Shown here in pieces: positions 1,311 through 57,000 of a DNA stretch of 61,917 nt; within the stretch, counting starts at the first letter, position 1, and each line of letters begins with the position of its first letter. The notes beneath the pieces were generated by a model. It did no database searches. It saw only the letters and a list, made by a program, of their open reading frames with translations, and had not been told where the DNA came from. Source of the DNA: Lujinxingiaceae bacterium (GTDB taxonomy: Bacteria > Myxococcota_A > Bradymonadia > Bradymonadales > Bradymonadaceae); assembly GCA_013697635.1 (NCBI GenBank), contig JACCWM010000007.1, positions 1 to 61,917 of the forward strand, in the 5' to 3' direction. The position numbers and the translations under genes were made by a program.

Positions 1311-2000
1311 GTGACCTTTGAGATAGCTCCCGAGTACACCCCGCAAAGCGAAGAAGAACTCATGGAGCGCGCCAACGCGCTCGCCGGCCACACGCTCGGC
1401 GAGCTTGCCTGCGCGCTGGGACTTGCGGTGCCGGCCTCGCTTCGCCGCCACAAGGGTTGGGTCGGCCAGCTCATCGAAACCTGCCTGGGCGCAATGGCCA
1501 CCAACCGACCCGTGCCCGATTTCGAGAATCTTGGGATCGAACTCAAGACGTTGCCCGTCGATCGCTTCGGCCAACCCCGCGAGACGACCTATCTGTGCAC
1601 CGTCGATCTCAGCGAGGTCGAGGAGCTGCAATGGGAGAGCAGCCGCGCCCGAAAAAAGCTCGCCCGCGTGCTCTTCATCCCCATCTTGGCCGAACCCGAC
1701 ATCGATCTGGGCGCGCGCATGGTCGGCTCGCCCATTTTGTGGAGCCCCAACGACGCCCAGGAGCAAGCGCTTCGCCGCGACTGGCAAGAGCACATGGACC
1801 TCATCGCTCAGGGCCTCGTCGAGACGATCACCGCCCGAGACGGCCGCTACCTGCAGATTCGCCCCAAGGCCGCCAACGCCCACGTCATGACCTGGGGCGT
1901 CGACGATCGCGGCGACGCGGTGATGACCACCCCGCGCGGATTCTATCTGCGCACGAGCTTCACCGGCGAGCTGCTGCGCGCCCACTTCGGTCTTATTTGA
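1311..2000 (+). CDS. mutH: DNA mismatch repair endonuclease MutH
   Basis: In Gammaproteobacteria MutH nicks the unmethylated strand at hemimethylated GATC after activation by MutS/MutL. The protein is 229 residues, the same length as the E. coli enzyme, and aligns end to end by eye: TLGELA near residue 28, KGWIG-like KGWVG at 48-52, ELKTLPV, the VGSPILWSPN block, YLQIRPKAANA and PRGFYL. The catalytic triad D70, E77 and K79 (D-x6-E-L-K) is present at identical numbering. The start is GTG at 1311 with AGAGG five bases upstream. It converges on a small membrane-protein gene with an 8-bp overlap. No dam, mutS or mutL lies in this window. MutH is rare outside Gammaproteobacteria, so this copy suggests horizontal transfer. 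Confidence 0.95.
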   Translation: MTFEIAPEYTPQSEEELMERANALAGHTLGELACALGLAVPASLRRHKGWVGQLIETCLGAMATNRPVPDFENLGIELKTLPVDRFGQPRETTYLCTVDLSEVEELQWESSRARKKLARVLFIPILAEPDIDLGARMVGSPILWSPNDAQEQALRRDWQEHMDLIAQGLVETITARDGRYLQIRPKAANAHVMTWGVDDRGDAVMTTPRGFYLRTSFTGELLRAHFGLI

Positions 2001-15755: not shown

Positions 15756-16460
15756 TCAGGGCGTGATCCAGTCACCATAAGGACGCCCGAAGTTGGCCCG
15801 GTTGCGCTTGGTATGCAACGGAGAGCCTTGTGGTGGCACGTAGGGCTCACCCCAGCGGGCACCCGGCGCGATGAGAGCGCCCTCGGCGTTGCGATCGAGC
15901 ACGGGCATGCCTTTTTCGCGCCGGTTGGGCGAATCGATCGCGAGGTGATCGGGAGCAACCGGTTTCTCGACTTGTTGGGCGGCCCGGTATTCGATCACGC
16001 TGACGCCGCGGCGACCGCCCGAGCGAAAGGCGAAGACCTCGGGCATGTAGGCGCGAAGGCCTACGATGCGAAAGACAGCGGCGCTGGTGCGCAAGATCTC
16101 GAAGTCGACCAGGCGTGTCTTATAGAAGGCTTCGAGATCGGCGCTGGACATATGCGATTCGACGGTGACATAGCTCTCGGCGCGCTGAATGCTGATCACG
16201 TCAGGAGGCAGCGGCAGGCCAAAAGCTTCACGATCTTGGGCCAGATCGAGCTCCTCGGCAGTCTGCGTCGTGTCCGGTGGGCCGACATCGACCAACTTGA
16301 CCACAGGCTCTTGAGTCGAGCGTTTGCAACCAAGAGCAAACAGACACATACAAAGCGCCAGCAATGCGCGCTGCAAGCCGGCGCGCCGGCTGCTGGCCAT
16401 CAGGTGACGAGCAGCCGGCGCGGTGCATTGGCTCGTGGTGAGTCGGGGAGCAGTACTCAT
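15756..16460 (-). CDS. Lipoprotein translationally coupled to pilY1
   Basis: 234 residues if started at the ATG (16458-16460) that overlaps the pilY1 stop as TGATG. The lipobox ALGC then lies 45 residues in, so an internal ATG at 16398-16400 giving an ordinary 25-residue signal peptide (ending CMCLFALGC) is an equally good start. The mature part is a compact alpha/beta sequence (VISIQRAESYVTVESHMSSADLEAFYKTRLVDFEIL) without a recognised family, then a Pro/Gly/Arg-rich tail. Position as the last gene of the minor-pilin operon suggests a pilus-associated envelope role. Confidence 0.65.
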   Translation of the reverse strand: MSTAPRLTTSQCTAPAARHLMASSRRAGLQRALLALCMCLFALGCKRSTQEPVVKLVDVGPPDTTQTAEELDLAQDREAFGLPLPPDVISIQRAESYVTVESHMSSADLEAFYKTRLVDFEILRTSAAVFRIVGLRAYMPEVFAFRSGGRRGVSVIEYRAAQQVEKPVAPDHLAIDSPNRREKGMPVLDRNAEGALIAPGARWGEPYVPPQGSPLHTKRNRANFGRPYGDWITP

Positions 16461-19400
16461 CAGTTCGAAATCACCGTCCAACTCAGCGGAATGGCCTGAC
16501 CGCGCACCGGGTCGAGATCGACGGCGATACGTCCAATGTTCTCGCCATCGGCCGACTTGTCCTTGTGGGAGTCCTCACGGGCGCCCGGATCGGCGGATCC
16601 GGTTTGGGCAACCAGCTGCGGTTTGCGCGTGCTGTCGGTCTCGTGGAATTTGTTGATCCCACCTTCGACGCCAACACTGCAAGCAGGGCCCATCGTGACG
16701 CTTACGCCGCGAATCAGGGTAGGCTCCTTGGGGCCAAACCACAGCGCCTTCTCTGAGGTGGTGCCCTCGACCAGAATACTGGAAGGATCCTGAACGGCTG
16801 TGCGCGTCCAGAGGCCGACCGGATCAACGGTGTTGTCTTGCTTCAAAAAGCTCAAGCCGTAGATGCGCGCCGTGCCGGCCTCGCAGGCATCGCTCATGTT
16901 GGCGATATTGTAGGAGGTAAAGTAGACGCCGTTGTTGAAGACGACCGGCTCCCCGGTGAGCTTCTCGCCCACACCAAAGCGGTAGCGCCAGCTCAGCACG
17001 GGTACGACCTTGCCATTGCCATCGAAGGTCTCCTCAACGGCGATCATGAATTGGGTCTGACCGGCCGGCGAGGTGTCGCCGCGCTCGCCAAGTCCGTAGA
17101 CGACGACCAAATTGCGCTTTGGTCCCATGGCGACGGCCGGTCGAAACGAGGCCGGTCCAAAGCTGGTGTTGGACGCATGGGGCGCGAATTTGCCGGTATT
17201 ACCGCTGTCTGCGCTGGGATCGAAGAACAGACTCATCTCCCAGTCGGCGGCATCGGGCTTGGAGACGTCGATGCGGTACAGCTTGCCCGATGCGTCGCCA
17301 ACAAATCCGCGCGTGGCCACGCTGCCCGGGAAATCGTCGAACAGCACCGGTGTTCCGATCAGGTCATGATCGAAGCTCTTGAACGTGTCGTCGGCTTGTT
17401 TGAAGTCGACGAAGCGGCGCAACATCGTGCCGCTTTGCAAATCCACAATGTAGAGCGCGCGGCCAAAGCGGTTTGTTGAACAGCCCAGGGTGTCGCTGAC
17501 GTCGCTGCTCGAGCCGGCCGAGAACATCGCGATCGGGCGGCGAATGGCGTTGCCATCTGCCGTGGGTTTAAAGGCCACCGTCCCGATGGCCGCCTCGCCG
17601 ACGCTGCGGCCCATATAGGGAAGACGCCACTGATTGACCGAGTTCGACTCCAAGTCGATCAGGTTCGTGATCAGGTTGGTGCTGCATGTGCTCGAGCCAT
17701 TGGGACCAAAAAGGGTCTTGGAGGAGGAGAGTGCATCGAGTTGGCCAAGCTCCCAGGTCGGGTCGAACTCCCAGAGGGGAATGGGGTCGGGCGGGTTATT
17801 CTTGTCGCCGGGGCGCGTGACGTCGAGCGCGAAGTAGCCGCGTCCGGCATCGCCAAGGCCCTGGACGAGCACGGTACGCCATTGCTCGGCCGGCGGCACG
17901 TTGTCCGTCCAGGCATTGCAGGCCTGGTCGTTGGCATTAAGCAACGGGTTGCCATGGCAGAGCCGGACGTCGGTGACCACAGGCGAGCCGTCGAGCAAGC
18001 GCGGCTGGCTGCCGGAGTGCCAGGCCAGCGTGCGATGGAGCATGTGCGGGATGTAGGACCACGCTTCGCGCTGCTTGAATGCGCCGGGAATCGAGGCGCA
18101 ATCGGCGTAGGGGTCGTCGTTGCTCGTTGCTACGCCACCCGAGTTGGCCGGTTTGGTCGGTTTGCGACAGCGTACATCAGGGTGACCGGTGTAGAGCGCA
18201 TGGAGTTGACCATCGAGGGTGCCCACATAGAGCATTGTGGGTCGATCGGCAAAGCGTGCGCGAAAGGCTCGATAGCTGTCGATCGGAAGATCGAGATCAG
18301 GCGGTCCGACGGCCACCGGGTTCGACTGGAAGATGCCGCCGAGCACACGGTCGAGCTTTTCGGGGATGCGTCCACGCATCTCGTCGACGAGACTTTTGAA
18401 CTCCTGGGGGCCTTCATTCGGATCGCTGGCGGTCGAGAGCGAGAAATAGTTGCGAAAGTCCTCATCTTGCTTTTCTGCAGCTCCGGACGAAAATGGCTTG
18501 CCGTCGCCGACGTAGGCCGCTCTGAGTCGATTGTATTCAAAGGGAATACGCGTGCCCACCAGGTTGGATGAGATATCGCCCGTGCCGCCGCCGGCGTGGA
18601 TGTAGGTGCCGCCAAACTCGTCGATGTTGGTGAGCTTGACTGGCGCAAAGCGCGTGACATAGGGCGCGGCCAAGCCCGGTGAGAGCGCGCGATGTTGGTA
18701 GTGATTGTAGTTGAGCGGGCTTGGCACGGAGGTAAAGACGCGCCGGCTGTCATCTTCGGTGAGCGTGGCTTCATTGGTCGTTCGTACACCGCGCAGCAGG
18801 TTGACGTCCTCGTGCATGCGCACCATGTCTTTCCACACTTCGAGTCCTGTGGGCTTTTGAAGCGCGGAGGACTCGGCCTTGCACTCGAGCAATTGGCGAT
18901 TAATGATGCCCTTCCAGTAGGGGCTGCGGCTGTCCATGCGCACGCCGGAGTACATGCGGTACTGTCCACGGGTGCCGACGACGTCGAGATAGCTCGTCAT
19001 CGCCGGGCGTGTACGCGCGGCCAAGCCGGAGGCGCCGATGATCTCGTTGAAGACCAGGTCAAAGGCCTTGCGAATGGTCGTTTTGTCGTTGCGGGTAAAG
19101 ATCATCGCCGGGTGCTTGCATGTGAAGGCCGCGGTACCGTCCGGCGGAGAGAATTGATAGCTGGTGAAGGTCGACGAGGGGCCGCCAACGCCGCTCTGGT
19201 AGGCCAGACACGACTTTGTGGCGCTCGGAACGCATGTCCCAATCAGTCCCGCCGGCGTCGCCATGCCCGTTTGCAAGTAATCAACTCCCAAATAGTACTG
19301 GGCGCAGGTCTTTCCCTTGGCAGCCATCGTTGCAATCTTGTCCAGGACTTGCACCTGATTGGCAGCACCGTCCTCAACAACGTTGATGCCCACAATGTGA

Positions 19401-21001
19401 ACGCGCGGCACGTTCATCCAATACGTTGGGCTCGCCGAGTCGACGCCCAGGCTCGCGTCATTGACGAAATTCGAGATCAAGGTCTCCGTGACGTCGTATT
19501 TGTAGCGCGCAGGGTCGTAGTTATAGGATAAATTGAGGTTATCACTTCCCAACCCAGAGCCCGCGCCACCGGGTGCCTCAGGCTCAGGAAAGCCGTCGGT
19601 GAGCATGATCACATGCTTGGGTCGGCAGCCCCGATAGGGATCGTTCTCCACGACAAAGGGATTGAGCACTTGCGTTGTGGTGCGACTCTTTCCGCGCTCC
19701 CAGAAATCGGAGTTGTTCTCGCGAAACTGGCCATATTTAAAATATTGGTGGATGTCGTGAACGGTGCCGCCAAAGGGCGTCGCCCGAGCCATAGGCTGCT
19801 TGCCCAGGGTGTAGGGCTCCATGTAGTTGTCGAATCCTTGCGGTAGGTTGAGGTAGGGCCAGTTTTTCTGCTTATCGGCCAGAGACCCATCGCTCTTCTT
19901 GCCGGACTTTTTCTTGGGCTTGGACTGGAGCAGATAGGATTGGCGCATATCGCCGCTGCCTCCCTGGTGAACGTAGCCTGCATCGGCCAGCGCCAACTGG
20001 GTATAGGCCGAAATAGACTGCAAATAGCTCAAGGGAAGATCGAGGCGCGTGGGGCCCACGACACGGTAGATGCCCAGATTGTAGTTCTTCAGCGGATCGT
20101 TATTTGGGTTGTTGCTGTAATAATCTTCCTTGGCCGTGTTGGTGCTGTCGACTAAAGGCGAGGCGATGATGTCGTTCATACCCCAGCCCTTGTCATCGGG
20201 GCCTCGGCCGTCGAACTGGAAGCCGTCGAACATGGTCACCGCCACGATCGCGCGTCCCGACATGCTGTCGAGCAGACCGTTGGGAATCTGGTAGTCGTAG
20301 ACCTCTTGGATGTGTGGGCGAGGGTCGTCGTAGTCGAGCAGACGCTCAAATCCGTTACTACCGACGCAGATTGGCTCTTCGAGCGTGGCGTGGCGAAAAC
20401 GCGGTATGAACCAGCAGCCCGGGCCGCTGTCGGCGCGCGAGCCGGTGGTTGAGGCGCCGCGCTCCAGGATCATGTCACCGCTCAAGATCTCCTTGACCAT
20501 GACGTGGCGAGGTAAGTTGTTCTCGGCCAGGCGATGGGTCGTCGAGTCGCGCATCGCGGTCATGCGATTTTTCATCGCGGTGGTATAGCCCGGGCCCGAA
20601 AGCCAGGGGCATTCATCGGCGGCGCACCAGGCTGGCCGCTCGTAGAGGCTACAAGGCGGCGCCCAGACATAGCAGGGACCGACCGTGCTGATCGAGTTGG
20701 CGTCGCTGGTGCCGTCGGCCTTGAGCTTCAGATCGGAGCCGGCCACCCACTTGCTGAGGTGCGTACCCGCGGTGGTGCCAAACGTGCTGTATTCTTCGTC
20801 GCCCTGATCGGTCCATTGCATGCTGGCCGATGTGTCCATCATGATCATGACGTAGGGCATCTGGGCGGCGCCAAATTCCACCGGGTTGGACTGGGCCTGG
20901 GCCGAAGTCGCCAGAAAAGTCACAGCCGTAGACAAAAGCAGACTCGCAAAGCCGGCCGAACGGGCAAAGGATCGAGAAGCTAAAAAAGTGCGCCGTGTCA
21001 T
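16460..21001 (-). CDS. pilY1: PilY1-type pilus tip adhesin / assembly protein
   Basis: 1513 residues from the ATG at 20999-21001, preceded by GAGG seven bases upstream; the reading frame is open further (to 21250), but that extension has no export signal. The signal peptide ends at AQA (residue 36). A von Willebrand A-like region begins with MIMMDTSASM (MIDAS motif DxSxS from D56). The C-terminal half contains PilC/PilY1 beta-propeller blocks (ALDVTRPGDKNN, PLWEFDPTWELG, YIVDLQSGTMLRRF, GFVGDASGKLYRIDVS). In characterised systems PilY1 sits at the tip of type IV pili with minor pilins and modulates retraction and adhesion. Last large gene of the pilin operon here. Confidence 0.92.
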   Translation of the reverse strand: MTRRTFLASRSFARSAGFASLLLSTAVTFLATSAQAQSNPVEFGAAQMPYVMIMMDTSASMQWTDQGDEEYSTFGTTAGTHLSKWVAGSDLKLKADGTSDANSISTVGPCYVWAPPCSLYERPAWCAADECPWLSGPGYTTAMKNRMTAMRDSTTHRLAENNLPRHVMVKEILSGDMILERGASTTGSRADSGPGCWFIPRFRHATLEEPICVGSNGFERLLDYDDPRPHIQEVYDYQIPNGLLDSMSGRAIVAVTMFDGFQFDGRGPDDKGWGMNDIIASPLVDSTNTAKEDYYSNNPNNDPLKNYNLGIYRVVGPTRLDLPLSYLQSISAYTQLALADAGYVHQGGSGDMRQSYLLQSKPKKKSGKKSDGSLADKQKNWPYLNLPQGFDNYMEPYTLGKQPMARATPFGGTVHDIHQYFKYGQFRENNSDFWERGKSRTTTQVLNPFVVENDPYRGCRPKHVIMLTDGFPEPEAPGGAGSGLGSDNLNLSYNYDPARYKYDVTETLISNFVNDASLGVDSASPTYWMNVPRVHIVGINVVEDGAANQVQVLDKIATMAAKGKTCAQYYLGVDYLQTGMATPAGLIGTCVPSATKSCLAYQSGVGGPSSTFTSYQFSPPDGTAAFTCKHPAMIFTRNDKTTIRKAFDLVFNEIIGASGLAARTRPAMTSYLDVVGTRGQYRMYSGVRMDSRSPYWKGIINRQLLECKAESSALQKPTGLEVWKDMVRMHEDVNLLRGVRTTNEATLTEDDSRRVFTSVPSPLNYNHYQHRALSPGLAAPYVTRFAPVKLTNIDEFGGTYIHAGGGTGDISSNLVGTRIPFEYNRLRAAYVGDGKPFSSGAAEKQDEDFRNYFSLSTASDPNEGPQEFKSLVDEMRGRIPEKLDRVLGGIFQSNPVAVGPPDLDLPIDSYRAFRARFADRPTMLYVGTLDGQLHALYTGHPDVRCRKPTKPANSGGVATSNDDPYADCASIPGAFKQREAWSYIPHMLHRTLAWHSGSQPRLLDGSPVVTDVRLCHGNPLLNANDQACNAWTDNVPPAEQWRTVLVQGLGDAGRGYFALDVTRPGDKNNPPDPIPLWEFDPTWELGQLDALSSSKTLFGPNGSSTCSTNLITNLIDLESNSVNQWRLPYMGRSVGEAAIGTVAFKPTADGNAIRRPIAMFSAGSSSDVSDTLGCSTNRFGRALYIVDLQSGTMLRRFVDFKQADDTFKSFDHDLIGTPVLFDDFPGSVATRGFVGDASGKLYRIDVSKPDAADWEMSLFFDPSADSGNTGKFAPHASNTSFGPASFRPAVAMGPKRNLVVVYGLGERGDTSPAGQTQFMIAVEETFDGNGKVVPVLSWRYRFGVGEKLTGEPVVFNNGVYFTSYNIANMSDACEAGTARIYGLSFLKQDNTVDPVGLWTRTAVQDPSSILVEGTTSEKALWFGPKEPTLIRGVSVTMGPACSVGVEGGINKFHETDSTRKPQLVAQTGSADPGAREDSHKDKSADGENIGRIAVDLDPVRGQAIPLSWTVISN

Positions 21002-21111
21002 CGAAAACCTCGTTGAGCCAGTTCCGGGCTGATTGCTTGGGTGTAGAACATCGCCATCATCATCATTGAATTGAAAAAAGCAGTTGAGCATCTCTCGTGC
21101 TCTGGTCCGGC

Positions 21112-21795
21112 TCACTTGGTGCCACAAGGTACGGGCCCGACCATGGCCTCGATTACGTTTCTGGACATCGCCACGTTGTGGCGCACGTCCCAATTCTCCG
21201 AGGGATTGCCGACTTGACCATGGGCTGCCACCGTCACCTTCTTGAAGCAATGGCTGCGGTCAAAGCCTGGGGCCGGGGGGCCGTCGAGCGGATCACGGAT
21301 GATGAACTCGTAGTTGGTAGGCAGCCCGCCGACCTGGTCTTCGAACGATTTGGCCGTCGTGGCGTTATGAAAAATGCCTTTTCCCATGGGAAAGAGGTGC
21401 TCCATGCTCAAAACGGAACTGCCCGCAGCCGTCGGAGGGATCTTGGTGAAGATGCGGTAGCCTCCACGGCGCACGAGATCATGGCGCTCTTGGGCATCGG
21501 TCTTGGCGCTTAACTCGGTGGCAAGAGCCGACTGCATCGAATCCAGATAGGATTGACCATGGTCACTGAGGCGATAGATCGCCAGGTTGGCCACCGAGTC
21601 GGAGAGCTGATTGGACTGCTGGCGGATGCGATGGTTGCCCGACTTCCAGACGCTGTCGTTGACCGAGTTGAGCGCGACGATGCCAAGGCCGGAGAGCACC
21701 AGCATGACAAGCAAAGCCGTGATCAGCGCGGCACCACGTCGCGTTGAGCGTCGCGCTCTTGCGTCCCAGAGGAGCTTATCGCCAAAGTATTTCAT
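21112..21795 (-). CDS. pilX: PilX-like minor pilin assembly protein
   Basis: 227 residues. After a basic N-terminus comes the PilX_N signature RRGAALITALLVMLVLSGLGIVALNSV (residues about 19-45), a single membrane helix without the GFTLxE of classical prepilins. The periplasmic part is predicted alpha/beta with two cysteines. Third-but-last in the fimU-pilV-pilW-pilX-pilY1 order known from Pseudomonas-type clusters, where the product is part of the pilus-initiating complex. Gap to pilW is 23 bp. Confidence 0.85.
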   Translation of the reverse strand: MKYFGDKLLWDARARRSTRRGAALITALLVMLVLSGLGIVALNSVNDSVWKSGNHRIRQQSNQLSDSVANLAIYRLSDHGQSYLDSMQSALATELSAKTDAQERHDLVRRGGYRIFTKIPPTAAGSSVLSMEHLFPMGKGIFHNATTAKSFEDQVGGLPTNYEFIIRDPLDGPPAPGFDRSHCFKKVTVAAHGQVGNPSENWDVRHNVAMSRNVIEAMVGPVPCGTK

Positions 21796-21818
21796 GGTCT
21801 TCCTGATCGGGGCTTGGG

Positions 21819-23156
21819 TTAAAAAATGTTGCGCATGGCGAAATTGGTAAGTTCCACGGTCGCTTGCACCGTCACGACGCTGGCCGAGCCGATCGCGTTC
21901 GGTTCGATGTCGTAGCTTCGCATCGGACCATTGACGGCTTCAAAACCGCGCCAGCTCGCGTCGTTGGTCACGGTGAGATGCGGGCGATTGGGTCGTTCGT
22001 GCTCGGTACGAACCGACAAGCGGATGTGAGCCACGCGCGCCAGATGAGGCACCTTGTTCGCGCCCTCCATACAGCTGCTCGCCGGTGTGGTCCATCCCTG
22101 ATTCCAGGCGATGTCGGTGACGATACCGTTGGTGGTTTCGCCGCAGTCAAACCACAGACGAAAGTCGACCACACGGTTGGCGATGACCACCCGATCCGAG
22201 ACCAGCGAACTGGCCGGCGCCCAGGTGGCCAGAGCCGGCTCGAGCGTCGTTTGGTGCAGAGTCGAGATGTCGACGCGCTCTCGCACGAGCTGCAAATTGG
22301 ATCGATCGAAGGGATCGGGGACCACGCGGTACCAAAAACCGTCGAGAAAAGCCGCGTCGTATTCGACGTCAACCTCGGCTACCGATTCGATGCCATAAGG
22401 CGCGCCGCCGGTTGCCACCTTGAGCGAGGGATCAAACTCCAATGCCATGCCCGTGCCGTCGGCCACCGCGGTCTTGATGCCCGTAAAGTGAAAGAAGCCC
22501 TGGCGGTCGGTGAGGCGTACAAGTCGCGTCGCCATTTTCTGCTCAACCGCAGCCTTCGTACTGGGCGTCGTGATGTCAAAGCCCGAGGGCGTGGAGACCT
22601 CAGTGCGAAAGGGGTCACTGAGTACGATGCGGTGCAGACCGCGCACATGCGTGTTGATCCGGGCCGAGCCGGCGGCCACGTTGCCGAGCATCACGCTTTG
22701 CGGGATATCATAGGCGCCCACGATCACCATGCCGTCAAAGCGCGATTGGGGATTGGCCGTGCTCAGCGCAGCGCCATCGGTCCCGCCCATGAGGTCACCG
22801 ATCGTCTTTCCTCTCCAGCCAGAGTAGGGCAGCAGGCCGCGCACCTGCACGGTGCTCGGCTTGGGCTGCGACCAGGAATCGAGCTTGCTGTCGGGTGTGG
22901 CCTGTGAGCCGGCGGCTTGCAGATCGTTTCGCACATGCTCGAGGGCAAAGCGGGCGATGTCGGTCGTCTCGGCCAGGCTGTCCACCTCGGTCAGCGTCTC
23001 GGCCGTAGTGTGAAACAAGCCGTAGATGATCGAGGTCAAGAGCCCCAAGATCATCATCGAGATCATCAACTCGACGAGCGTAAAGCCCGCGCGAAGCGCG
23101 GGGCGCCGGCGTCGGTTCGCTGAGAAAGACCGTATGTTCAGATGAGCGGTGAGCAT
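21819..23156 (-). CDS. pilW: PilW-like minor pilin
   Basis: 445 residues. Type III prepilin signal: basic leader with ANRRRRPALRAG, then FTLVELMISMMILGLLTSIIYGLF, cleaved by the prepilin peptidase before Phe with the conserved Glu at +5. The large periplasmic domain (over 400 residues) is long, as is usual for PilW. The gene follows pilV by three bases and precedes pilX, which fits the conserved operon order. Confidence 0.88.
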   Translation of the reverse strand: MLTAHLNIRSFSANRRRRPALRAGFTLVELMISMMILGLLTSIIYGLFHTTAETLTEVDSLAETTDIARFALEHVRNDLQAAGSQATPDSKLDSWSQPKPSTVQVRGLLPYSGWRGKTIGDLMGGTDGAALSTANPQSRFDGMVIVGAYDIPQSVMLGNVAAGSARINTHVRGLHRIVLSDPFRTEVSTPSGFDITTPSTKAAVEQKMATRLVRLTDRQGFFHFTGIKTAVADGTGMALEFDPSLKVATGGAPYGIESVAEVDVEYDAAFLDGFWYRVVPDPFDRSNLQLVRERVDISTLHQTTLEPALATWAPASSLVSDRVVIANRVVDFRLWFDCGETTNGIVTDIAWNQGWTTPASSCMEGANKVPHLARVAHIRLSVRTEHERPNRPHLTVTNDASWRGFEAVNGPMRSYDIEPNAIGSASVVTVQATVELTNFAMRNIF

Positions 23157-44152: not shown

Positions 44153-46921
44153 CTACGTCAACGATTCCATGACCGCATCCGGAACCGAAAACTGCAGACC
44201 AAACGTCACGTTCATCGGCCCGCTCCCTTGCACAGCGATGACCCTCACCGGCCCAAGATAAGTCGGCGAAGCGTGCGAGCGTGGCTGCACGAATAGCCGC
44301 AAGGTCTTTTGGGATTGCTCATGATCCAAGATCATCCGCCCGCCTACATTATCTTGGCGTTGATTGTTCTGGCTCTGCCAGTGAAATCGGTCCGCGCCCT
44401 CAAAACGGTTGGCATATTGAAACTCCGTCTTCGCCCCGCTGGTGTCGATCTTGGTGATCAAGACGATCTCGTCAGGACACGGCGCCTCCGCCCTGAACTT
44501 GATCACGCCGATATTGTGCAGGGCCGGATCGTACTGCAGCCCGAAGTGATTGATGATCTCCGGCCGCTCGTAAGCGCGATGGAGCACCAGCGCCGATGGC
44601 GAACGCAGCGTGCCACCGTGCCGCGTCCGGTAGTTTCGCTCGAGATGATACTGGATGCGCCGCTCCACCTGCATGCACAGCACATCCCCTGACGGGAAGG
44701 CCGCATAAATCTCCGCCCGCAGCGTCCCCCCCACCACCAAGCGCCCCAGCTTCTTACCCAAAGTTTGCCAAACCTTGGTGCTCTCCAACGGTGCGTACTC
44801 GACCATCCAACGCGGAAAACGCCTAAAGAACTGCTCATACCCCTCGTTGACGTCCTCCGGCGAGCGACATAGCGCCCAAAGCAGCGCATAGGCGTACACC
44901 CGCGACTGCTGCCAATCGCGCTCGCAGGCCATCAACAAGTCGTGGGCCGCAGAGCCTGCATCGATCCGCTGCTCCCAATCCTGAGCGTCGCCCATCGCCA
45001 CCCGACAATCCAACCACGAACCGAACGCCGCCCGAAAGTCCCCCAGCTCCGGCACATCCGCTCGCCCCAAAAGGTCGACCGGAAACGGAGGCCCAATCTC
45101 CGAGCGCAGCACCCGATAGGACTCCGCGCACCACTCCTTCTTCTTTCGTCCCTGGGCCCGAACCTTGACCAAGATCTCGCGCGTCAAGTCGTCGAGCATG
45201 ACCTCACAATGCTTGGGCGGCGTGAAATCCAGATCCTGAACGGTCGATGGTCCCGGCGGCGCGTTCTGGTCCATCAGCGTCGCCACCGTCAACCAGGCGT
45301 TTCGATGATGCCCCACGAAGTCGAGCACCGTCAGCACTTCGCAATCCGGGCTCAACCGCAAGCCGCGGCCAAGCTGTTGGATAAAGATCGTGGCCGATTC
45401 CGTCGGCCGCAAAAACAGCAGCGAGTTGATACCCGGAATGTCCACGCCTTCGTTGAGCAGGTCGGCCACAAAAAGCCACTCCAGTGGATCGTTTGGGTCT
45501 TGCAGCGCCTCGTAAACCTCGATTCGACACGCGAGCGAATCCTCACCCGTGAGCGCCCGCGCGCAAAAACCACGGCGCACCAAAACATCCGCCATGAACC
45601 GCGCGTGCCGACGCCCCGCACAAAAACCCACCGTCGCACGCCGCCGCCCATCAAACCCTTTTTCCAGCGCATGCTCCAACACATGGTCGACCCGTGCCTC
45701 CAGCATCAGCGCGTTTTCTACCTTGTTGATATCGAGCTTCGCGCTGCGCCAGAACGACGCCCCATAGTCGACCGTCGTGTCCGCGATCCCGAAATAATGA
45801 AACGGCACGAGCCACGACCGATTGATCGCCTCGATCAGCCGAATCTCGTACGCGATATTGAAATCACACAGCGCCAGTACATCGTGCCCGTCCTGTCGCT
45901 CCGGCGTCGCCGTCAGACCGAGCAGAAAACGTGGCTGAAGCTGGTCCAACAATCGCCGATAGCTCGGAGCGGCAGCGTGGTGGAACTCATCGACGATCAC
46001 GTAGTCGAATCGCCGCTCCAACAGCTTCGAGTCGACGGCCGATTGCACCGTCGCGAACACCAAGTCAGCGCTGACCTCTCGGCTGTCACCATAGACAAGT
46101 CTTGTCTTCGCACCGAGCCCGTACACCTTGCGAAAAGTCTCTCGCGCCTGCGTCAAATGCTCGAGCCGATGAGACAAGAATAGCACCGTTTTTGCCCCGG
46201 CCGCCCGCGCATCAAACGCCGCCAAAAAGGTCTTTCCCACGCCCGGCGCCGCAATCACCACCGCCTTGGATTCCCCAACGTTTCGCAGTCTCTCCAGTTG
46301 ACCCAGCGCTTCGATCTGCGCCGGATTCGGCGTCGCGACCCTCGCCACCCCAGCAGGCAACCTGGGAACGTCCATGGCCCCAGGAAACGCGAAGTACGCC
46401 TCCAACAGAGCCTGCGCATAGGCATCGGTCAGCGCCTCGTCCAACCGGAACACATCAGGCCGCTCCCACATCGCCTCAAACGCCGCCAGCGTTTGTTGAA
46501 CCGCCTGCGGATCGCGCTGCAAAAGGTTGGCCTCGATATTCGTCGTCAGCCCCCCCTTCGACAAGTTGGAAGACCCCACCCAACACTCCATCGTGTCCCC
46601 ACTGAACACGAAGAACTTCGGATGAAACCCGACCTGCTGAAACCCCACTTGCCGCGCCACATGAACCCGAACCGCCACCCCCTCCAACGTCGCCAACACC
46701 CGCAACGCCGCCGGCTGCGTAATCCCCATATACGTCGACGTCAAAATCCGCGCCCTACCCCCCCGCGCCACCAACGCCTTGAGGTCGTCCACCAGCAACT
46801 GCAACCCACTAAACCGCACAAACGACACCGACAACGCCACCTCGTCAGCGCGCCGCAATCCCGACCGCACCACATCCAGCATCCGGGCCTGACCAGCCAT
46901 GTTTGTTACGAGCAGATTCAT
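44153..46921 (-). CDS. PLD nuclease - SF2 helicase fusion (DUF3427-type)
   Basis: 922 residues. N-terminal phospholipase-D-like nuclease domain with H100-x-K102 and GSSN at 116-119 (HKD-type half site). SF2 helicase follows: Walker A APGVGKT ending at T231, DEFH box at 311-314, TATP at 337-340, FVADLLNEGVDIP and motif VI QQLGRGLR. The last 300 residues match the DUF3427 type (C-terminal restriction/modification-associated region: FPSGDVLCMQVERRIQYH, SPSALVLHRAYERPEIINHFGLQYDP, FQYANRF). Such fusions are known as components of restriction-like or phage-defence loci; here it is a stand-alone gene bracketed by inverted repeats, next to the SMC operon. A DNA-targeting defence role is inferred. 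Confidence 0.85.
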   Translation of the reverse strand: MNLLVTNMAGQARMLDVVRSGLRRADEVALSVSFVRFSGLQLLVDDLKALVARGGRARILTSTYMGITQPAALRVLATLEGVAVRVHVARQVGFQQVGFHPKFFVFSGDTMECWVGSSNLSKGGLTTNIEANLLQRDPQAVQQTLAAFEAMWERPDVFRLDEALTDAYAQALLEAYFAFPGAMDVPRLPAGVARVATPNPAQIEALGQLERLRNVGESKAVVIAAPGVGKTFLAAFDARAAGAKTVLFLSHRLEHLTQARETFRKVYGLGAKTRLVYGDSREVSADLVFATVQSAVDSKLLERRFDYVIVDEFHHAAAPSYRRLLDQLQPRFLLGLTATPERQDGHDVLALCDFNIAYEIRLIEAINRSWLVPFHYFGIADTTVDYGASFWRSAKLDINKVENALMLEARVDHVLEHALEKGFDGRRRATVGFCAGRRHARFMADVLVRRGFCARALTGEDSLACRIEVYEALQDPNDPLEWLFVADLLNEGVDIPGINSLLFLRPTESATIFIQQLGRGLRLSPDCEVLTVLDFVGHHRNAWLTVATLMDQNAPPGPSTVQDLDFTPPKHCEVMLDDLTREILVKVRAQGRKKKEWCAESYRVLRSEIGPPFPVDLLGRADVPELGDFRAAFGSWLDCRVAMGDAQDWEQRIDAGSAAHDLLMACERDWQQSRVYAYALLWALCRSPEDVNEGYEQFFRRFPRWMVEYAPLESTKVWQTLGKKLGRLVVGGTLRAEIYAAFPSGDVLCMQVERRIQYHLERNYRTRHGGTLRSPSALVLHRAYERPEIINHFGLQYDPALHNIGVIKFRAEAPCPDEIVLITKIDTSGAKTEFQYANRFEGADRFHWQSQNNQRQDNVGGRMILDHEQSQKTLRLFVQPRSHASPTYLGPVRVIAVQGSGPMNVTFGLQFSVPDAVMESLT

Positions 46922-47320: not shown

Positions 47321-48310
47321 TCAAGCGCTGGCCTCGAGGCTGGCTTCCAGGGCGGTGGTGAGGCGAGGGTCGAGGGCGGGGAGTTCTTGTTCGAGCCAGA
47401 GGTTGCGGGTGATGAGGGTTTGGACGAGGGGTGGGAGGTCGTGGGTGGGGAAGTCGGGGGGCCAGTGGCGCGGTTGGGCGTGGGTTTCGAGGTAGTCGGT
47501 CCAGAATTCGGGGACGAACCAGCGCAGGGTCGGGTGCAGGGTGCGCAGGTGGCGGGTGATCTGGACGCCCATGGGGTCGAGGTCGCCGAAGTGGAGGACG
47601 GGGATGGCGGGGTAGTGGTTGAGGAGCTGGGCGATGGTGCGGGTGTCCCAGCCGGGGACGTGGGCGATGAGCCAGCCGGGGGGGTGGGGCAGGTCGATGA
47701 AGGGGCCGCGGTTCTCGACGAGGAGCAGGGCGCGGGGTGAAGGGCCGCAGAGGCGCGTGCCGTCGGCCAGGGCGCGCTCGGTTATGGTGAGCTCGCCGGT
47801 GAGCGTGGCGACCTGGTGGGCGTCGAGGGTGAGCTCGGCGCGGCGAAGCTCCATGCCGGGGTGGGGGCGCAGGCGGACGAGGCCGTCGTAGGTGAGCTCG
47901 AGGCTGCCGAGGGTTTCGCGGTGGGCGGGGGTGAGCGTGGATTTGGAGTGGCGCGCCACCATGGCGGTGGCCGAGCGGCGGTTGAGGCGCTCGGGTAGCG
48001 CGTCGAGGTCAATCTCGGCGGCGCGGCGACGGCGCTCGAACTCGCGCCAGCCGCGCTCGTCGGGGGTGAGGCCCTCGTGATCGAGCATGGCGAGGGTGGT
48101 GGACCAGTCGGGCCAGACGCGGTCGAGCAGCGCTTCGATGTAGAGGCGGCGCGCTTCGTCGATCTGGAGCTCGTCCTGGCGGGTGGCGCGACGGCCCCAG
48201 CCCAGGCGCAGGAGCTCGTCGAAGGCCTCGCTCTGGGATTTGCGGCGCGGGAGCAGGCCGGTTGACCAGAGCTCGAGCAGGGCGAAGCGATGGGGGGTGG
48301 ACGACCACAT
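47321..48310 (-). CDS. jetD: JetD/MksG-type Toprim nuclease subunit of the SMC operon
   Basis: 329 residues. In Wadjet/MksBEFG systems JetD (MksG) is the Toprim-fold nuclease that cleaves DNA after loop extrusion by the SMC complex. The C-terminal half has the expected motif order: LLLVENRGPF (E199) and VLHFGDLDPMGVQITRHL (D243, D245), with IAHVPGWDTRTIAQLL between. The N-terminal DUF3322-like arm is short (about 190 residues) compared with the usual JetD of nearly 400 residues. The ATG overlaps the mukB stop by one base (TGATG), so it is the last gene of the operon and translationally coupled. Canonical MukBEF operons of Enterobacteria lack such a gene. Confidence 0.85.
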   Translation of the reverse strand: MWSSTPHRFALLELWSTGLLPRRKSQSEAFDELLRLGWGRRATRQDELQIDEARRLYIEALLDRVWPDWSTTLAMLDHEGLTPDERGWREFERRRRAAEIDLDALPERLNRRSATAMVARHSKSTLTPAHRETLGSLELTYDGLVRLRPHPGMELRRAELTLDAHQVATLTGELTITERALADGTRLCGPSPRALLLVENRGPFIDLPHPPGWLIAHVPGWDTRTIAQLLNHYPAIPVLHFGDLDPMGVQITRHLRTLHPTLRWFVPEFWTDYLETHAQPRHWPPDFPTHDLPPLVQTLITRNLWLEQELPALDPRLTTALEASLEASA

Positions 48311-51300
48311 CAGGCCGGCTCCGGGTCAGCGATGGTGCGCCGGCCGGTGACCTCGACGCGCTCGCGGCCCTCGGCGTCGAGTGTGCGCACCAGCCGGTAG
48401 GTCGTATTACCCACGGCCTGGGCGACCTCGGGGGCGGCGATCAAGAGCTGGAGCTCGAGGCTCTGGCACAGGTCGAAGAGCACGGTGAGGCTGTCCTGGC
48501 TGAGGCGCGTGGCCTCGTCGAGAAACAACAGGCGCAGGGTGCCGCCGGCCGAGCTGCTGCGAAAGAGGTTGGCGTCGCGCTCCCAGGCCGTGAGCACGAT
48601 CATCATCACGGCCGCGCCCACGCCGATCGCCTCGCCGGTGGACATGCGGTTGGGGTTGGCGCGCTCCCAGGTGACGGCGGCCTGGCGGTGCACCTCGACC
48701 TCGAGCTGCATGTACTCGCGGTAGTCGAGCATGCGGTCGCCGCCGGTGCGACCACCGCCGTAGCGGCGAAAGAGCTCGTCGAGGGCCTGTTCGATCGGCA
48801 CGTCCGTCTGGAAGAGCAGTTGCTGGGCCGAGCCGTCGCGCAGGGCGCGCAGCACCTGCTCCATGCGCTCGACGCGCTCGACGCGGATGCGCACCGAGCG
48901 GATGCTGCCGAAGCTGACTTGTTCGAGATCTTTGCTCAAGCGACGCACGACGCGGTGGGCCTTGCGGATCTGGGTATCGATATTGCGGGCGATGTCGGAG
49001 GACTGGCCGCGAAGCTCGTGCTCCTGGCGGCCGAGGCGCTCTTCGAGCTCCATGAGGTGGCTGCGCAGGCGGCGCAGGGCCTCGAGGGGATCGTCGACCT
49101 CGGAGATCTGGGCGGGCACGCGGCGGCGAAGCCAAGCCTGCACGGCGAGCCAGGCCTCGAGGTAGGCCTCGCCACGCTCCTGCTCGCCGTCGTGGGCGAT
49201 GAGCGCGTCGATCGCGGCGATGAGCTCGGCGCCGTCGCGTGTCGATTCGAGCCGCGCGCGCAAGGTGGCGTGCTTGTTCTGGGCCTGCGGCCACAGGTGC
49301 ACGCCGGCCTTGTCGGCGACGGCTGCGAGGCTCGCCACGTTCGTGGCGTTGGCGAGCACGCCTTCTTGCTCGGCGCGGGCGCGCAGGCGCTGCCAGCGCT
49401 CTTCGGACGGGCGCCACATGTTCTCCTCGTTCTCGACGAGCCGGCGTCGTGTGTCGAGGCGTTCCCCTTCGGCGCGCAGGCGCTCGTCGAGCGTGGCGAG
49501 CGCTACCTCGAGCGCGCGGCCCTCGCGATCGAGGCGGGCGGCCTCGTCGCTCGCTTTGTCGAAGGCCGCCTCGACGCCCTGCACGGCCGCGGCGCTCGGG
49601 TCGTCGATCGCCAGGCCGGCGAGCTCTTCGCGCTCGCGGGCGAGCGTCGAATCGCGGGCATTCAGCTCGGCGGTGTGATTGGCCGCCGTGCTGCGGGCGT
49701 CTTCGAGGCGGTGTCCGGCCGTCGATTCGGCCTGGCGAGCGTTGGTGCAGCCCTGCTCGGCGCGCTCGAGGTTTTCCTGGAGCGCGGGTGCCAGGCGTTC
49801 TTCGCGGGCGAGCTGTTCGTGAGCGCTGTGCCAGGCAAAGGCGTGGGTGTGAGCTGCGACGTGGGCCAACCACTGTGTCGCCTGAGAGAGGCGGTCGCGC
49901 TCGGCGGTGGCGTTGTGCAAGGCGACGCTGTGGCCGGCGAGCTCTTCGTCGCGCGGGGGCAAGGTGCGAAGCACTTCGATCTCGGCGGCGAGCCGGCGGC
50001 GATCTTCAGTGCATGCCGTAATGCGAGCGGCGGCTTTATGGGCCTGGTCGAGGCGTGTGCGCGAGGCCTCGAGGCGACTGGCGACGTCGGGCTCGTCGAG
50101 CAACCAGGCCAGCTCGAGCAGGCGGCCGAGGGCGGCGCGTCGAGGTTCGAGCTCGGCCAACTGCTGGCGGTGGTGGTGCTCGAGGCGCGTGTGTTCCTGC
50201 CGCTCGCGCTCGGCGCCTTCGAGCTCGGCGCGGGTTGCCTCGAGCGCCGCGCGCGGGTCGTCGCGCTCGAGCAGATGCGCGGCTCCGAGCAGCTCCCGGG
50301 CGCTCTTGAGATCTGCGTCGAGGGTATGCAGCCGCTGGCGCAGGCCGTCGCGCTCGGCTTCGACGGCCGAGGCCTCGGCGTCGAGCTGGGCGATGCGTTT
50401 GGCGCGCGCCGAGCGTCCGATCGTCGGCTGTTTGGGGATGCGCGACAGCCGCCAGGCCGCGCGATCTTCGACGAGCACGTCGTCTACGATGCGTTCGCCG
50501 GGAGGCCGGCCGCCGTCGTCGAGCCCGAGGGTCTGGCCTTCGCCGACGAGCCAGACGGTGGACGGGCGCAGCTCGGTGGCGGCGAGCTTGCGGGCGGCGG
50601 CGGCGACATCTTCGACGAGGATCGCCTGGTGCAGGGCGCCGAGGCGGGCCTCGATTTCGGCGGCGTGCTCGATCTCGACGTCCTCGAAGCGCACAGCGAG
50701 CAGCTCGCCGTCGACCACATCGCGGGCGCGGACCAGGGCGTCGTCGAAGTGGCCGCCCATCTGCTCGAGCTGGCGCGCTTCGGTGCGAAGCGCGTCGTAT
50801 TGGCCGTCGGACTTGCGCAAGGTGGCGGCGAGGGTTTCGCGGCTGGCGCTCGCGGCATCGATCATGGCGAGGACGTCGGCGTTGGTTCGCAGTTGGAGAT
50901 CCCACCGTGCAGCGAGCCTGGTGGCGACGTGCTGCGTCGCTTGCCAGGGACCGACGAGGGCGTCGAGCTCGGTGGCGCGCCGGGTGAGCTCGTCGGCGCG
51001 TGCGCGGGCGTCGCGGGCGCCATTGGCGTGCTCGGCTAACCGGACTTCGTGCTGCGATCGAAGCGCGTCGGCCGCGTCAAAGGCCTCGCGAACGGCGGCG
51101 GCGTCGAGCAGCGGACGCTCGAGCGTGGAGAGTTGCCGGGCCGTATCAAAGGCCTTTTGCTGGCGGCCGGCCTGCTCGTCAAGGCGCGCGATCTCCTCGC
51201 CGAGCTGGCCGCGCTCTTTGGCCAGCGCGTCGAGCTCGCGCAGCGCTTCGAGCGCCGCGCCGGCCTGGGTGTAAGCCGTCTCAGGCCGTAGCTCGGCGTC

Positions 51301-52737
51301 GAGCAGTCGGGCGAGCACTTCGAAGACGGCACCAAACTGGCGGGCGTGTTCGTGGGCGGTGGAGAGCTCGCGCTCGAGGCGCACGATCGTCGCGTCAAAG
51401 GTTGCGATCTCTTCGCGCAACAAGGCCTCGCGAGCGTCGGCGTCCTCGGGCGCGAGCTCTTCGCCGAGAGCATCGCGTGCTTGAGCCAGGCGGCGGGTGA
51501 CGAGCGCGTAGGCGGCGGCCTGGAGGTTGAGCTCTTCGAAGCCGGCGTTGAAGTCGGCCAGGCCGCGGGCGGCGCGGTCGCGCTCTTGATCGGCGCGGGA
51601 CACCTCCTGGCGCGCGCGATCGAAGGCGTCTTGCGCGATGTCGCGGGCGCGGACGGCCCCTTCGAGCTCGAGCGCGAGGCCGCGGCGCTGCTCCTCGAGC
51701 GCCAGGATTCGCTGGTCGATCCCGAAGGCTTTGCGCGTGCGCTCGCGCAGCTCGCGCAGGCGCTCGACGCTCTGGCGAGCTGTGTCGAGCGAGGCGGTCA
51801 GCGCCTCGGCCTCGCTGCGGCGCTGTTCGACGACGGTCTGCAATTCGTCGAAGTCCGCCTGGACCCGCTCGAGCTCCTTTCGGGCATCGTCGAGGCGCAC
51901 GGCGAGCTCCTGGGCGCGCCGGGCGGTGGCGTGAAAGGCGGCGACGAACATGGCGCTGCCGGCCTCGTAGACGCCGTGAATCTCTTCTTCGAGGCGGCGC
52001 GCCTCGTGGACCTGCTGGCGGGTGCGCTGGCAGGCAACGAGGTTGGCCTTCATGCGCTTGAGCGTGTCGGCCAGGGTGTTCTCCTCGCGCAGCAGGAAGT
52101 CGCGCAGGCCGCCGGTCAGCGTCTTGGAGATACCGCCGACCATGCTGGTGCGAAGCATCTCGTTGAACTTGGTGAGCTCCTCGGGGCTGGAGAGGCGCAG
52201 CGGCGTGATGCCGCGGTCGAAGAGCGCCGCGAAGTAGTCTTTGGTCGCGCGAAAGGCCGTCAGCTTGCCGCCGCACAGCGCCACGAGCTCGCGCACCCGG
52301 GCGAGCTCGGCGACGGCGTCGACCTCGCCGCGCTCGAGCAGGACGTCTTGAAGGGAGTGGCGCGCGTCGAGATCCGTGATGATGAAGGGCGTGAGCTCGA
52401 CGGTGGGCTCGGTGCGCCGCTCGAGGTGCACTCCGGCGACGAGGCGTTCACCGCGCGCCGTCTTCAGATCGAGCAGCGCATACGAAGGCGCGCCCGGCTC
52501 GCCGAGTCGCCCGTAAATGCCGCGGTCGCCACCGCTCGAGCCCGACTCGCCGAGGTTGGTGAAGCGAAGGCGCTGCAGGTCGGGCAACAGCACGATGTAG
52601 GCGCCGATCATGACCGTGGTCTTGCCCGCGCCGTTGGCCCCTTCCAGCGCCGTGACGTGCGAATCCAGATCATAGCGTGCGTAGAAGACGCCTCGCCAGT
52701 TGACGAGCACGAGGCCTTGGACGCGGGTGCGATTCAC
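48310..52737 (-). CDS. mukB: MukB-like SMC ATPase
   Basis: 1475 residues, close to the 1486 of E. coli MukB and much longer than usual JetC/MksB. The start (GTG at 52735-52737, AGGA six bases upstream) gives RVQGLVLVNWRGVFYARYDLD, matching the MukB N-terminus (LTLVNWNGFFARTFDLDE). Walker A GANGAGKT at 33-40; PDLQRLRFTNLGESG...RGIYGRL aligns with the MukB head. Most of residues 230-1300 is Arg/Glu/Ala-rich coiled coil with a central break (about 620-780) for the hinge. ABC signature STGEAIG at 1366 and Walker B LLFLDEA (D1407, E1408), then LIAAPE as in MukB. DNA-loop-extruding motor with MukF/MukE; coupled to JetD. Separated from mukE by an inserted cassette. Confidence 0.9.
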   Translation of the reverse strand: MNRTRVQGLVLVNWRGVFYARYDLDSHVTALEGANGAGKTTVMIGAYIVLLPDLQRLRFTNLGESGSSGGDRGIYGRLGEPGAPSYALLDLKTARGERLVAGVHLERRTEPTVELTPFIITDLDARHSLQDVLLERGEVDAVAELARVRELVALCGGKLTAFRATKDYFAALFDRGITPLRLSSPEELTKFNEMLRTSMVGGISKTLTGGLRDFLLREENTLADTLKRMKANLVACQRTRQQVHEARRLEEEIHGVYEAGSAMFVAAFHATARRAQELAVRLDDARKELERVQADFDELQTVVEQRRSEAEALTASLDTARQSVERLRELRERTRKAFGIDQRILALEEQRRGLALELEGAVRARDIAQDAFDRARQEVSRADQERDRAARGLADFNAGFEELNLQAAAYALVTRRLAQARDALGEELAPEDADAREALLREEIATFDATIVRLERELSTAHEHARQFGAVFEVLARLLDAELRPETAYTQAGAALEALRELDALAKERGQLGEEIARLDEQAGRQQKAFDTARQLSTLERPLLDAAAVREAFDAADALRSQHEVRLAEHANGARDARARADELTRRATELDALVGPWQATQHVATRLAARWDLQLRTNADVLAMIDAASASRETLAATLRKSDGQYDALRTEARQLEQMGGHFDDALVRARDVVDGELLAVRFEDVEIEHAAEIEARLGALHQAILVEDVAAAARKLAATELRPSTVWLVGEGQTLGLDDGGRPPGERIVDDVLVEDRAAWRLSRIPKQPTIGRSARAKRIAQLDAEASAVEAERDGLRQRLHTLDADLKSARELLGAAHLLERDDPRAALEATRAELEGAERERQEHTRLEHHHRQQLAELEPRRAALGRLLELAWLLDEPDVASRLEASRTRLDQAHKAAARITACTEDRRRLAAEIEVLRTLPPRDEELAGHSVALHNATAERDRLSQATQWLAHVAAHTHAFAWHSAHEQLAREERLAPALQENLERAEQGCTNARQAESTAGHRLEDARSTAANHTAELNARDSTLAREREELAGLAIDDPSAAAVQGVEAAFDKASDEAARLDREGRALEVALATLDERLRAEGERLDTRRRLVENEENMWRPSEERWQRLRARAEQEGVLANATNVASLAAVADKAGVHLWPQAQNKHATLRARLESTRDGAELIAAIDALIAHDGEQERGEAYLEAWLAVQAWLRRRVPAQISEVDDPLEALRRLRSHLMELEERLGRQEHELRGQSSDIARNIDTQIRKAHRVVRRLSKDLEQVSFGSIRSVRIRVERVERMEQVLRALRDGSAQQLLFQTDVPIEQALDELFRRYGGGRTGGDRMLDYREYMQLEVEVHRQAAVTWERANPNRMSTGEAIGVGAAVMMIVLTAWERDANLFRSSSAGGTLRLLFLDEATRLSQDSLTVLFDLCQSLELQLLIAAPEVAQAVGNTTYRLVRTLDAEGRERVEVTGRRTIADPEPA

Positions 52738-52747
52738 GATTCGTCCT
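52729..52747 (-). repeat. 19-bp direct repeat at the mukB start (cassette right boundary)
   Basis: On the minus strand AGGACGAATCGTGAATCGC, spanning the SD, start codon (GTG) and first codons of mukB. 18 of 19 bases match 54944-54962. Confidence 0.9.
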
Positions 52748-52773
52748 GGTGGTCATCGACGACCAAGGCCGCA

Positions 52774-53310
52774 TTACTTAGTTGCGGCATCAACGATGTC
52801 ACGCGCCCAGGCTTGGACGATCTCAGTTTCATATTGGCGGCTTCCAACGGAGTTGCGACAACTCTTGTCGAGCTCGAGAATGTGGGGCGCAATGCTTGTT
52901 CGACGGATCGTGACGAGCATTGCGCTGTCGCTTAGGAGCTTTGCCTGAACAGACAGCGCCAAGGCGGACAGCTTCGCTTGATCGAAAGGTATTTCATAAT
53001 GCGCGTTCTGGATGCAACGGAAGGCCTCGATGTCGGGCTCTTTCTTAACCGTGAGTCCCGCCTGATGCAATAGATCCTCGGGGATGCGGAGATACCTCAA
53101 GTGATCTTGTTTGCGTCGGGTGTACGCGGCCACCGCCGTCGGAACATCAACATTCGAAGCTTCGTCGAGCAGCCACAGTGACAGAGTTTGCTCCGCAGAC
53201 CGCAATTGAAAATGACGCAGAAAGTCCTCGATGAAGTGGTCGGACTCCGGGGTTTCCAGGATTGATGGGCTCCTGCTGATAAGCCGGATATAGACGCGGC
53301 CTGCAGTCAT
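52774..53310 (-). CDS. Insert gene C: unknown protein
   Basis: 178 residues. No signal or membrane segment. A mixed alpha/beta protein with a helical middle (TAVAAYTRRKQDHLRYLRIPEDLLHQAG) and a region resembling a regulatory or nucleic-acid-binding beta fold (LSALALSVQAKLLSDSAMLVTIRRTSIAPHILELDKSCRNSVGSRQYETEIVQAWARDIV). No family recognised. Third gene of the three-gene cassette between mukE and mukB; it starts three bases after the upstream gene and stops 36 bases before mukB. The GC content of the cassette is visibly lower than its flanks. Confidence 0.7.
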   Translation of the reverse strand: MTAGRVYIRLISRSPSILETPESDHFIEDFLRHFQLRSAEQTLSLWLLDEASNVDVPTAVAAYTRRKQDHLRYLRIPEDLLHQAGLTVKKEPDIEAFRCIQNAHYEIPFDQAKLSALALSVQAKLLSDSAMLVTIRRTSIAPHILELDKSCRNSVGSRQYETEIVQAWARDIVDAATK

Positions 53311-53313
53311 CGC

Positions 53314-54743: not shown

Positions 54744-54943
54744 GTTAACCCTCTTCAAAAGCAAACGTGTTCGGACATTGCAGCGCCGTTTCGAAGCACC
54801 CAAGCGCTTTTGGGCATGGGCGATTACGCGGTTCTATGCAGATATAACAAAAGTTAATAACCAAAGCGATCACGGCGCCCTACATAATTGATAGCCAGAG
54901 TCATAATAGAGCAGCGAACTTGTCGGTCCCATCATGGCGCAGC

Positions 54944-54962
54944 GCGATTCATGATTCGTCCT
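54944..54962 (-). repeat. 19-bp direct repeat at the mukE end (cassette left boundary) with mukB start remnant
   Basis: On the minus strand AGGACGAATCATGAATCGC. It contains the last codons of mukE and, overlapping its TGA stop as ATGA, an ATG followed by AAT CGC, the first codons of mukB; this stub ORF ends after six codons (MNRAAP). It looks like the original mukE/mukB junction. Confidence 0.9.
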
Positions 54963-56906: not shown

Positions 56907-57000
56907 GGTCGAACTTCCAGGGAGCAAGAGACTGATACGCAGCCGGGGATGGTAGTGCTTTGGAGCGCTTGTGCGCAAGCTGCGAAAAACCGCCCGCGAA

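Follow-up and report, generated by a model that had tools for sequence, protein, structure and literature searches.

We propose, with a probability of roughly 0.55, that the bacterium carrying this DNA uses a hybrid form of mismatch repair, in which a DpnA-like methyltransferase would mark GATC sites, a resident MutH would nick, and MutL could also nick. The proposal starts from a mutH gene in the window (the whole stretch of 61,917 nucleotides analyzed here) and draws on the identity of the genes and their intact residues, on which genes occur together, on their places in trees and on purifying selection. MutH itself is ordinary for the phylum in its presence and unusual in its partners. What is probably new, judging from the genes, is the combination and not the protein: Dam is apparently replaced by an enzyme that is probably of the DpnA type, and the endonuclease motif of MutL is retained. 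Within the literature searched, we did not find this combination of MutH, DpnA-type enzyme and motif-bearing MutL in print; passages of a 2021 review (PMC8744996) describe methyl-directed repair for only a few gammaproteobacteria.

The host genome (G000) is 6.21 Mb in 213 contigs, is 99.45% complete and encodes one MutH. The phylum sample consisted of 377 Myxococcota genomes, in which the window's family is designated f1 (21 genomes; probably Bradymonadaceae) and its sister family f2. Genomes with and without MutH are denoted MutH+ and MutH−. Features are listed in Table 1.

Table 1. Features of the window, with the methyltransferase gene located elsewhere in the same genome (last line).
Feature	Position	Strand	Evidence or remark
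mutH, 229 aa, GTG start; MutH-family GATC nicking endonuclease (activity predicted)	1311..2000	+	ORF; NF003458, TIGR02248, PDB 1azo
Codon of D70	1518..1520	+	Invariant in 67/67 aligned MutHs
Codon of E77	1539..1541	+	Invariant in 67/67 aligned MutHs
Codon of K79	1545..1547	+	Invariant in 67/67 aligned MutHs
Large protein, weakly matching PilY1; adjacent genes resemble PilX/GspK and type IV pilins	16460-23156	-	
PLD-nuclease + helicase + DUF3427 protein beside the MukBEF operon	44153-46921	-	PADLOC type IV methyl-directed restriction model, 310 bits
MukBEF operon, in which MukB is immediately followed by a gene resembling JetD_C (Wadjet nuclease)	47321-56978	-	MukB 900 bits
Three additional ORFs separating MukE from MukB, one of them TIGR04255	52774-54803	-	Unmatched in four further MukBEF loci retrieved
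Beta-class adenine methyltransferase, probably of the DpnA type, 267 aa	G000:C15:143522-144322	-	PF01555 192 bits; DPPY motif

MutH in the window and in the phylum

The window gene is a true member of the MutH family, its product scoring above both curated equivalog cut-offs (NF003458, 302.3 bits against 243; TIGR02248, 264.1 bits against 229.9). It also matches Pfam MutH (PF02976, 97.4 bits, cut-off 23) and gives a gapless alignment with the E. coli MutH structure 1azo (E 2.8e-74). Residues E56, D70, E77, K79, K116, R184, P185, K186 and Y212 are all kept, and are invariant both in the 67 aligned MutHs and in the 11 aligned MutHs from f1 (numbers are those of E. coli MutH in UniProt; the 1azo chain is numbered +3). 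We take D70, E77 and K79, together with E56 and K116, to be the catalytic residues, and R184, P185, K186 and Y212 to be those that read GATC and its methylation. The earlier note had described a full-length protein with intact D70, E77 and K79, and this description is upheld. The window MutH is predicted to nick the unmethylated strand at hemimethylated GATC when activated by MutL. None of the neighbours of the gene has a match beside MutH in 12 other loci (11 from f1, and that of G334, from outside the order), so that genomic context gives no function.

MutH and Sau3AI share a fold, and the alternative had been raised that the window protein is a GATC restriction or defence nickase of the Sau3AI kind. 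A weak match to the Sau3AI model NF040973 is present (59.9 bits), with distant homology over MutH residues 13–225. However, the cut-off of that model is 300, and the protein has 229 residues, half the length, against 475 model positions; identity with Sau3AI was rejected on these grounds. In addition, PADLOC gave no hit for the protein, no neighbour is conserved, no methylase gene adjoins, and the methyltransferase described below is encoded on a different contig, next to a helicase gene. The chance that MutH serves in restriction is therefore very remote.

Matches to TIGR02248 occur in 126 of the 377 phylum genomes, 49 of them above the curated cut-off. Leaving out 10 weak matches of 31–51 bits, from family f4, gives 116 MutH+ genomes (G067, G077 and G336 have MutH on fragments). 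The earlier note had named many known MutH copies in the phylum as a finding that would refute it, and these counts do show many, though the literature searched yielded no paper stating that MutH is common in Myxococcota, nor any joining MutH, Myxococcota and mismatch repair. Two of the sampled MutHs, those of G163:C6 and G313:C2, are identical to those of CANJMI010000006.1 (a Polyangiaceae MAG) and VGRJ01000002.1 (a Myxococcota MAG) respectively, which puts the sampled phylum in Myxococcota and the own genome outside the Gammaproteobacteria. We note separately that the divergent MutH-like proteins of f4 (G033, G052, G072, G103 and six more), again of 31–51 bits and some of them in long frames, are possibly Sau3AI-like or a new branch.

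Within f1, MutH is found in 13 of the 21 genomes, spread over 8 genera, and is absent from the other 8. A tree of 67 MutH rows places 11 f1 sequences in one clade (98/91), with 16 gammaproteobacterial rows outside. This single clade, together with the commonness of MutH in the phylum, argues that MutH is a resident that f1 has retained, having been lost or patchily gained in places, and no stray import. The earlier note was right to place this MutH outside the Gammaproteobacteria, in a genome that is indeed from Myxococcota. Its suggestion of shared import is not supported, nor is a recent import. Between f1 genomes, dN/dS for MutH is 0.13–0.19 (NG86, five pairs; distant pairs are near saturation).

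The note had also remarked that MukBEF shares the window with MutH, and MukB, MukE and MukF were all matched there. Passages of a 2013 review (PMC4255302) tie MukBEF to dam, seqA and mutH in some Gamma- and Deltaproteobacteria, and thus already mention mutH together with MukBEF in some of the latter. Joint import from Gammaproteobacteria as a package would fit with the presence of both on one 62 kb contig. However, the two lie 46 kb apart, and the f1 MutH clade excludes the gammaproteobacterial rows. Full MukB matches occur in 5 of 80 genomes (G000, G006, G007, G051 and G178; three MutH+ and two MutH−), the same scan giving three further short weak matches, and SeqA (PF03925) was matched in 0 of 80, own genome included, while the E. 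coli control matched. As the own genome also has no match to Dam or PF02086, the Dam/SeqA/MutH/MukBEF package envisaged earlier is not supported, and the probability of an imported package is negligible. The JetD-like gene is also found after MukB in G007 (47% identity) and G051 (49%); a search around MukB in G006 did not reveal it, and in G178 the contig ends. Paired with a nuclease, MukBEF could act in defence against plasmids.

Dam and the orphan DpnA-like methyltransferase

The own genome has no match to TIGR00571 or PF02086, that is, no Dam (alpha-class) methyltransferase. Matches to TIGR00571 were found in 226 of the 377 phylum genomes. Outside f1, Dam is present in 97/103 MutH+ genomes against 125/253 MutH− genomes (Fisher 1e-17, a p-value that is too small since related genomes are counted as independent). 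Within f1 it is present in 2 of the 13 MutH+ genomes and absent from 11; PF02086 agrees with TIGR00571 here, both matching the same four of the 21 genomes. The usual partner of MutH is therefore missing precisely in f1. Dam occurs together with the DpnA-like gene described next in G090 and G140, and G077 (f1, MutH+, 87% complete) has neither.

The scan of the own genome with PF01555 gave one match only, the DpnA-type methyltransferase of Table 1. A direct search found this enzyme at full length in 16 of the 21 f1 genomes (67–78% identity, own copy 100%), comprising 12 of the 13 MutH+ and 4 of the 8 MutH− members. It is also present in 5/5 genomes of f2 (63–68% identity), a family without MutH. 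Its occurrence without MutH, in f2 and in half of the MutH− members of f1, indicates that MutH is not its primary role. Of the 16 f1 loci, 11 have a helicase gene directly alongside, and two more have it approximately 7 kb away. The neighbours of the own copy are this helicase gene and an esterase-like gene, with no restriction gene beside it. Its dN/dS is 0–0.07.

Outside the order, 29 genomes were tested, of which only G334 has the DpnA-like gene (65% identity). G334 is MutH+, lacks Dam and has no MutL motif pattern, which makes the DpnA-like gene the only candidate found there for a GATC mark. Its methyltransferase groups among the f2 sequences and its MutH does not belong to the clade of f1, which suggests that the two have separate origins and were brought together. 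The gene is absent from G019, G024, G136, G151 and G165, all outside f1, which are five of the six such genomes that are MutH+ and lack Dam.

The closest homologues among the plasmid sequences examined are from Lactococcus pSRQ700 (56.6%), Staphylococcus (52.8%) and Lactiplantibacillus (46.4%). All three are encoded in dam-DpnA-DpnII operons, flanked on one side by the gene for a Dam-type methylase and on the other by that for a DpnII nuclease, and the neighbouring DpnII proteins match PF04556 with 289, 344 and 268 bits respectively. In the methyltransferase tree, from which we used the main split alone because of very long branches and short fragments, the enzymes of the order and that of G334 form one clade (98/93), which is joined with a support of 100/99 to the three plasmid homologues and one sequence from Neisseria; four CcrM-like proteins fall outside. 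By its sequence, the orphan methyltransferase thus groups with the DpnII-operon methylases and not with CcrM, and we infer that its target is GATC.

A different reading is that some other, unrecognised methyltransferase marks GATC, and that the DpnA-like enzyme acts on a different target or serves a different purpose. The scans covered TIGR00571, PF02086 and PF01555 among adenine methylase families, and the presence of the enzyme in f2 without MutH fits with a separate role. The nearest NCBIfam model for it is CcrM (241 of 830 bits, far below the cut-off), and CcrM-like plasmid homologues are approximately 41–45% identical to it. However, the tree places the CcrM-like rows outside, and the own enzyme is 267 residues long as compared to 362–379 in those rows, so that approximately 100 CcrM-like residues are missing; in addition, no second PF01555 protein is present in the genome. 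We consider this reading unlikely. Pneumococcal DpnA is described as unusual in that it methylates single-stranded DNA (PMC3573125). By analogy, such a preference, if shared by the DpnA-like enzyme, might not serve a duplex strand mark.

MutL and MutS

The earlier note had named dam, seqA, mutS and mutL as the genes to look for. The first two are missing from the own genome, as described above, and the other two are present: MutL on the minus strand of G000:C97 (531.1 bits), with its endonuclease motif kept, and MutS1 on G000:C156 (980.8 bits). MutL was found in 30/30 genomes examined (in G140 and G183 as fragments only) and MutS1 in 22/22 tested, 20 of them above the cut-off. The own MutL carries DQHAAHERIAFE and CPHGR, and a Q..L.P stretch that constitutes a clamp-binding-like motif. 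In the alignment, DQHA(x)2E(x)4E and CPHGR are present in all f1 MutLs that are long enough, 9 from MutH+ genomes (own included) and 7 from MutH− genomes. The MutLs of G051, G102 and G177, MutH+ genomes from other families, have both CPHGR and a DQHA motif whose final position is D; that of G117 keeps DQHA and has CPHGRP broken; and those of G012, G022 and G163 have lost the endonuclease motif.

A DNA-pattern scan for the MutL motif matched 206 of the 377 phylum genomes, a number in which further off-target matches may remain, the matches having been read only in part, and in which variant MutL motifs count as negative; the reversed control pattern occurred in one of the listed genomes. Five off-target matches (G022, G207, G231, G305 and G246) were left out before the counts. 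On this basis, the motif is present in 13/13 MutH+ genomes of f1, and outside f1 in 27/103 MutH+ against 154/253 MutH− genomes. MutH thus accompanies loss of the MutL motif in most of the phylum, and does not do so in f1. Among gammaproteobacterial genomes with MutH, the motif is in MutL in 0/40, the sole match being a 156-residue frame in G390 that does not look like MutL. The pattern was not found in the six named Myxococcota scanned. Families f26, f31 and f33 have no MutL endonuclease pattern and mostly no MutH.

The 2021 review (PMC8744996) describes the MutL of MutH-bearing organisms as being without endonuclease activity. According to the same source, the motif-bearing MutL of Pseudomonas is able to interact in vitro with MutH from E. 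coli; a coupling of MutL to MutH is therefore plausible.

The MutL C-terminal domain has dN/dS of 0.01–0.02 in three close MutH+ f1 genomes, and is as constrained as the ATPase domain. MutH changes faster than MutL in the same genomes, its constraint being about tenfold weaker; this, and its absence from 8 of the 21 f1 genomes, means that MutH may be secondary. Both observations would also fit with MutH being a remnant of little role, with the MutL endonuclease carrying repair as it does in MutH-less bacteria. However, the dN/dS of MutH is well below 1, the nine residues to which we presumptively assign functions are invariant throughout the aligned f1 MutHs, and MutH persists as one clade in 8 genera; we consider a remnant clearly improbable. 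It could also be that MutH acts without any methyl mark, nicking unmethylated GATC on the call of MutL, while MutL and the clamp choose the strand. This would be consistent with the absence of Dam and with a MutL that has both an endonuclease site and the Q..L.P stretch. It would, however, leave unmethylated GATC exposed to nicks on both strands, and it fits poorly with the close tie of MutH to Dam outside f1 and with the DpnA-like enzyme in all but one of the MutH+ f1 genomes. We regard mark-free action as highly improbable.

The proposed repair and known systems

We therefore return to hybrid repair, in which the methylation step, the coupling of MutL to MutH, the division of labour and the use in strand discrimination are predicted parts. 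The DpnA-like enzyme, whose gene is kept in most of the order, would probably write the strand mark in the place of Dam. Newly made GATC would stay briefly hemimethylated after replication, because, we propose, this enzyme lags behind the fork. Once MutS had detected a mismatch, two courses would be open to MutL: activation of MutH at the closest hemimethylated GATC, or a nick of its own. Most likely, MutH would make the methyl-directed first nick, marking the new strand, and MutL, held by the clamp, may add further nicks near the mismatch. MutH would be dispensable in some members because MutL would suffice.

The window contains 543 GATC sites, a density that is enough for MutH: the median distance from one site to the next is 77 bp, and the longest stretch free of them is 1048 bp. 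A 216 kb sample of the own genome, which includes the window, has 8.5 GATC per kb, with an observed/expected ratio of 1.08. In samples of 20–80 kb this ratio is 0.67–0.85 in G145, G007 and G081, 0.91 in G334 and 1.00 in G102. We also note a short tandem run of a GATC-containing unit at positions 90–160 of the window, in the region of the first ORF.

For Bradymonadaceae as a family, repair with two nickases, namely a MutH guided by a DpnA-type methyltransferase unrelated to Dam and an endonuclease-active MutL, is a tentative reading to which we give slightly less than an even chance. The phylum contains the MutL endonuclease motif alone, both enzymes together, and MutH with a decayed MutL; if the two-nickase reading is true, these states would preserve the whole path by which methyl-directed repair emerges and becomes fixed. 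A phylum in which MutH is common, usually with Dam, and in which f1 is the exception, having another methylase and an apparently intact MutL nuclease, offers natural intermediates for the evolution of strand discrimination. Some relatives can probably be cultured, Persicimonas caeni among them if G145 belongs to that species, which makes f1 open to test.

Comparison with described systems places the components as follows. The methyltransferase has its closest relatives in DpnA (M2.DpnII), the second methylase of DpnII-like GATC systems such as that of pSRQ700 (56.6%; tree support 100/99), and differs in that no DpnII or Dam-type methylase gene lies alongside, in being adjacent to a helicase gene in most of f1, and in that its specificity is predicted. 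The window MutH resembles those of E. coli and H. influenzae (NF003458, 1azo, 2aoq) in being full length and colinear with the key residues kept, and in having MutS and MutL in the genome. Thus MutS1 and MutL are shared with methyl-directed repair of the E. coli type, whereas Dam, a SeqA match and a motif-free MutL are not. Finally, the f1 MutL resembles the MutL endonucleases of the Aquifex, Bacillus, Neisseria and Pseudomonas type, with DQHA(x)2E(x)4E, CPHGR and a clamp-binding-like motif, and, unlike the described pattern, it coexists with MutH.
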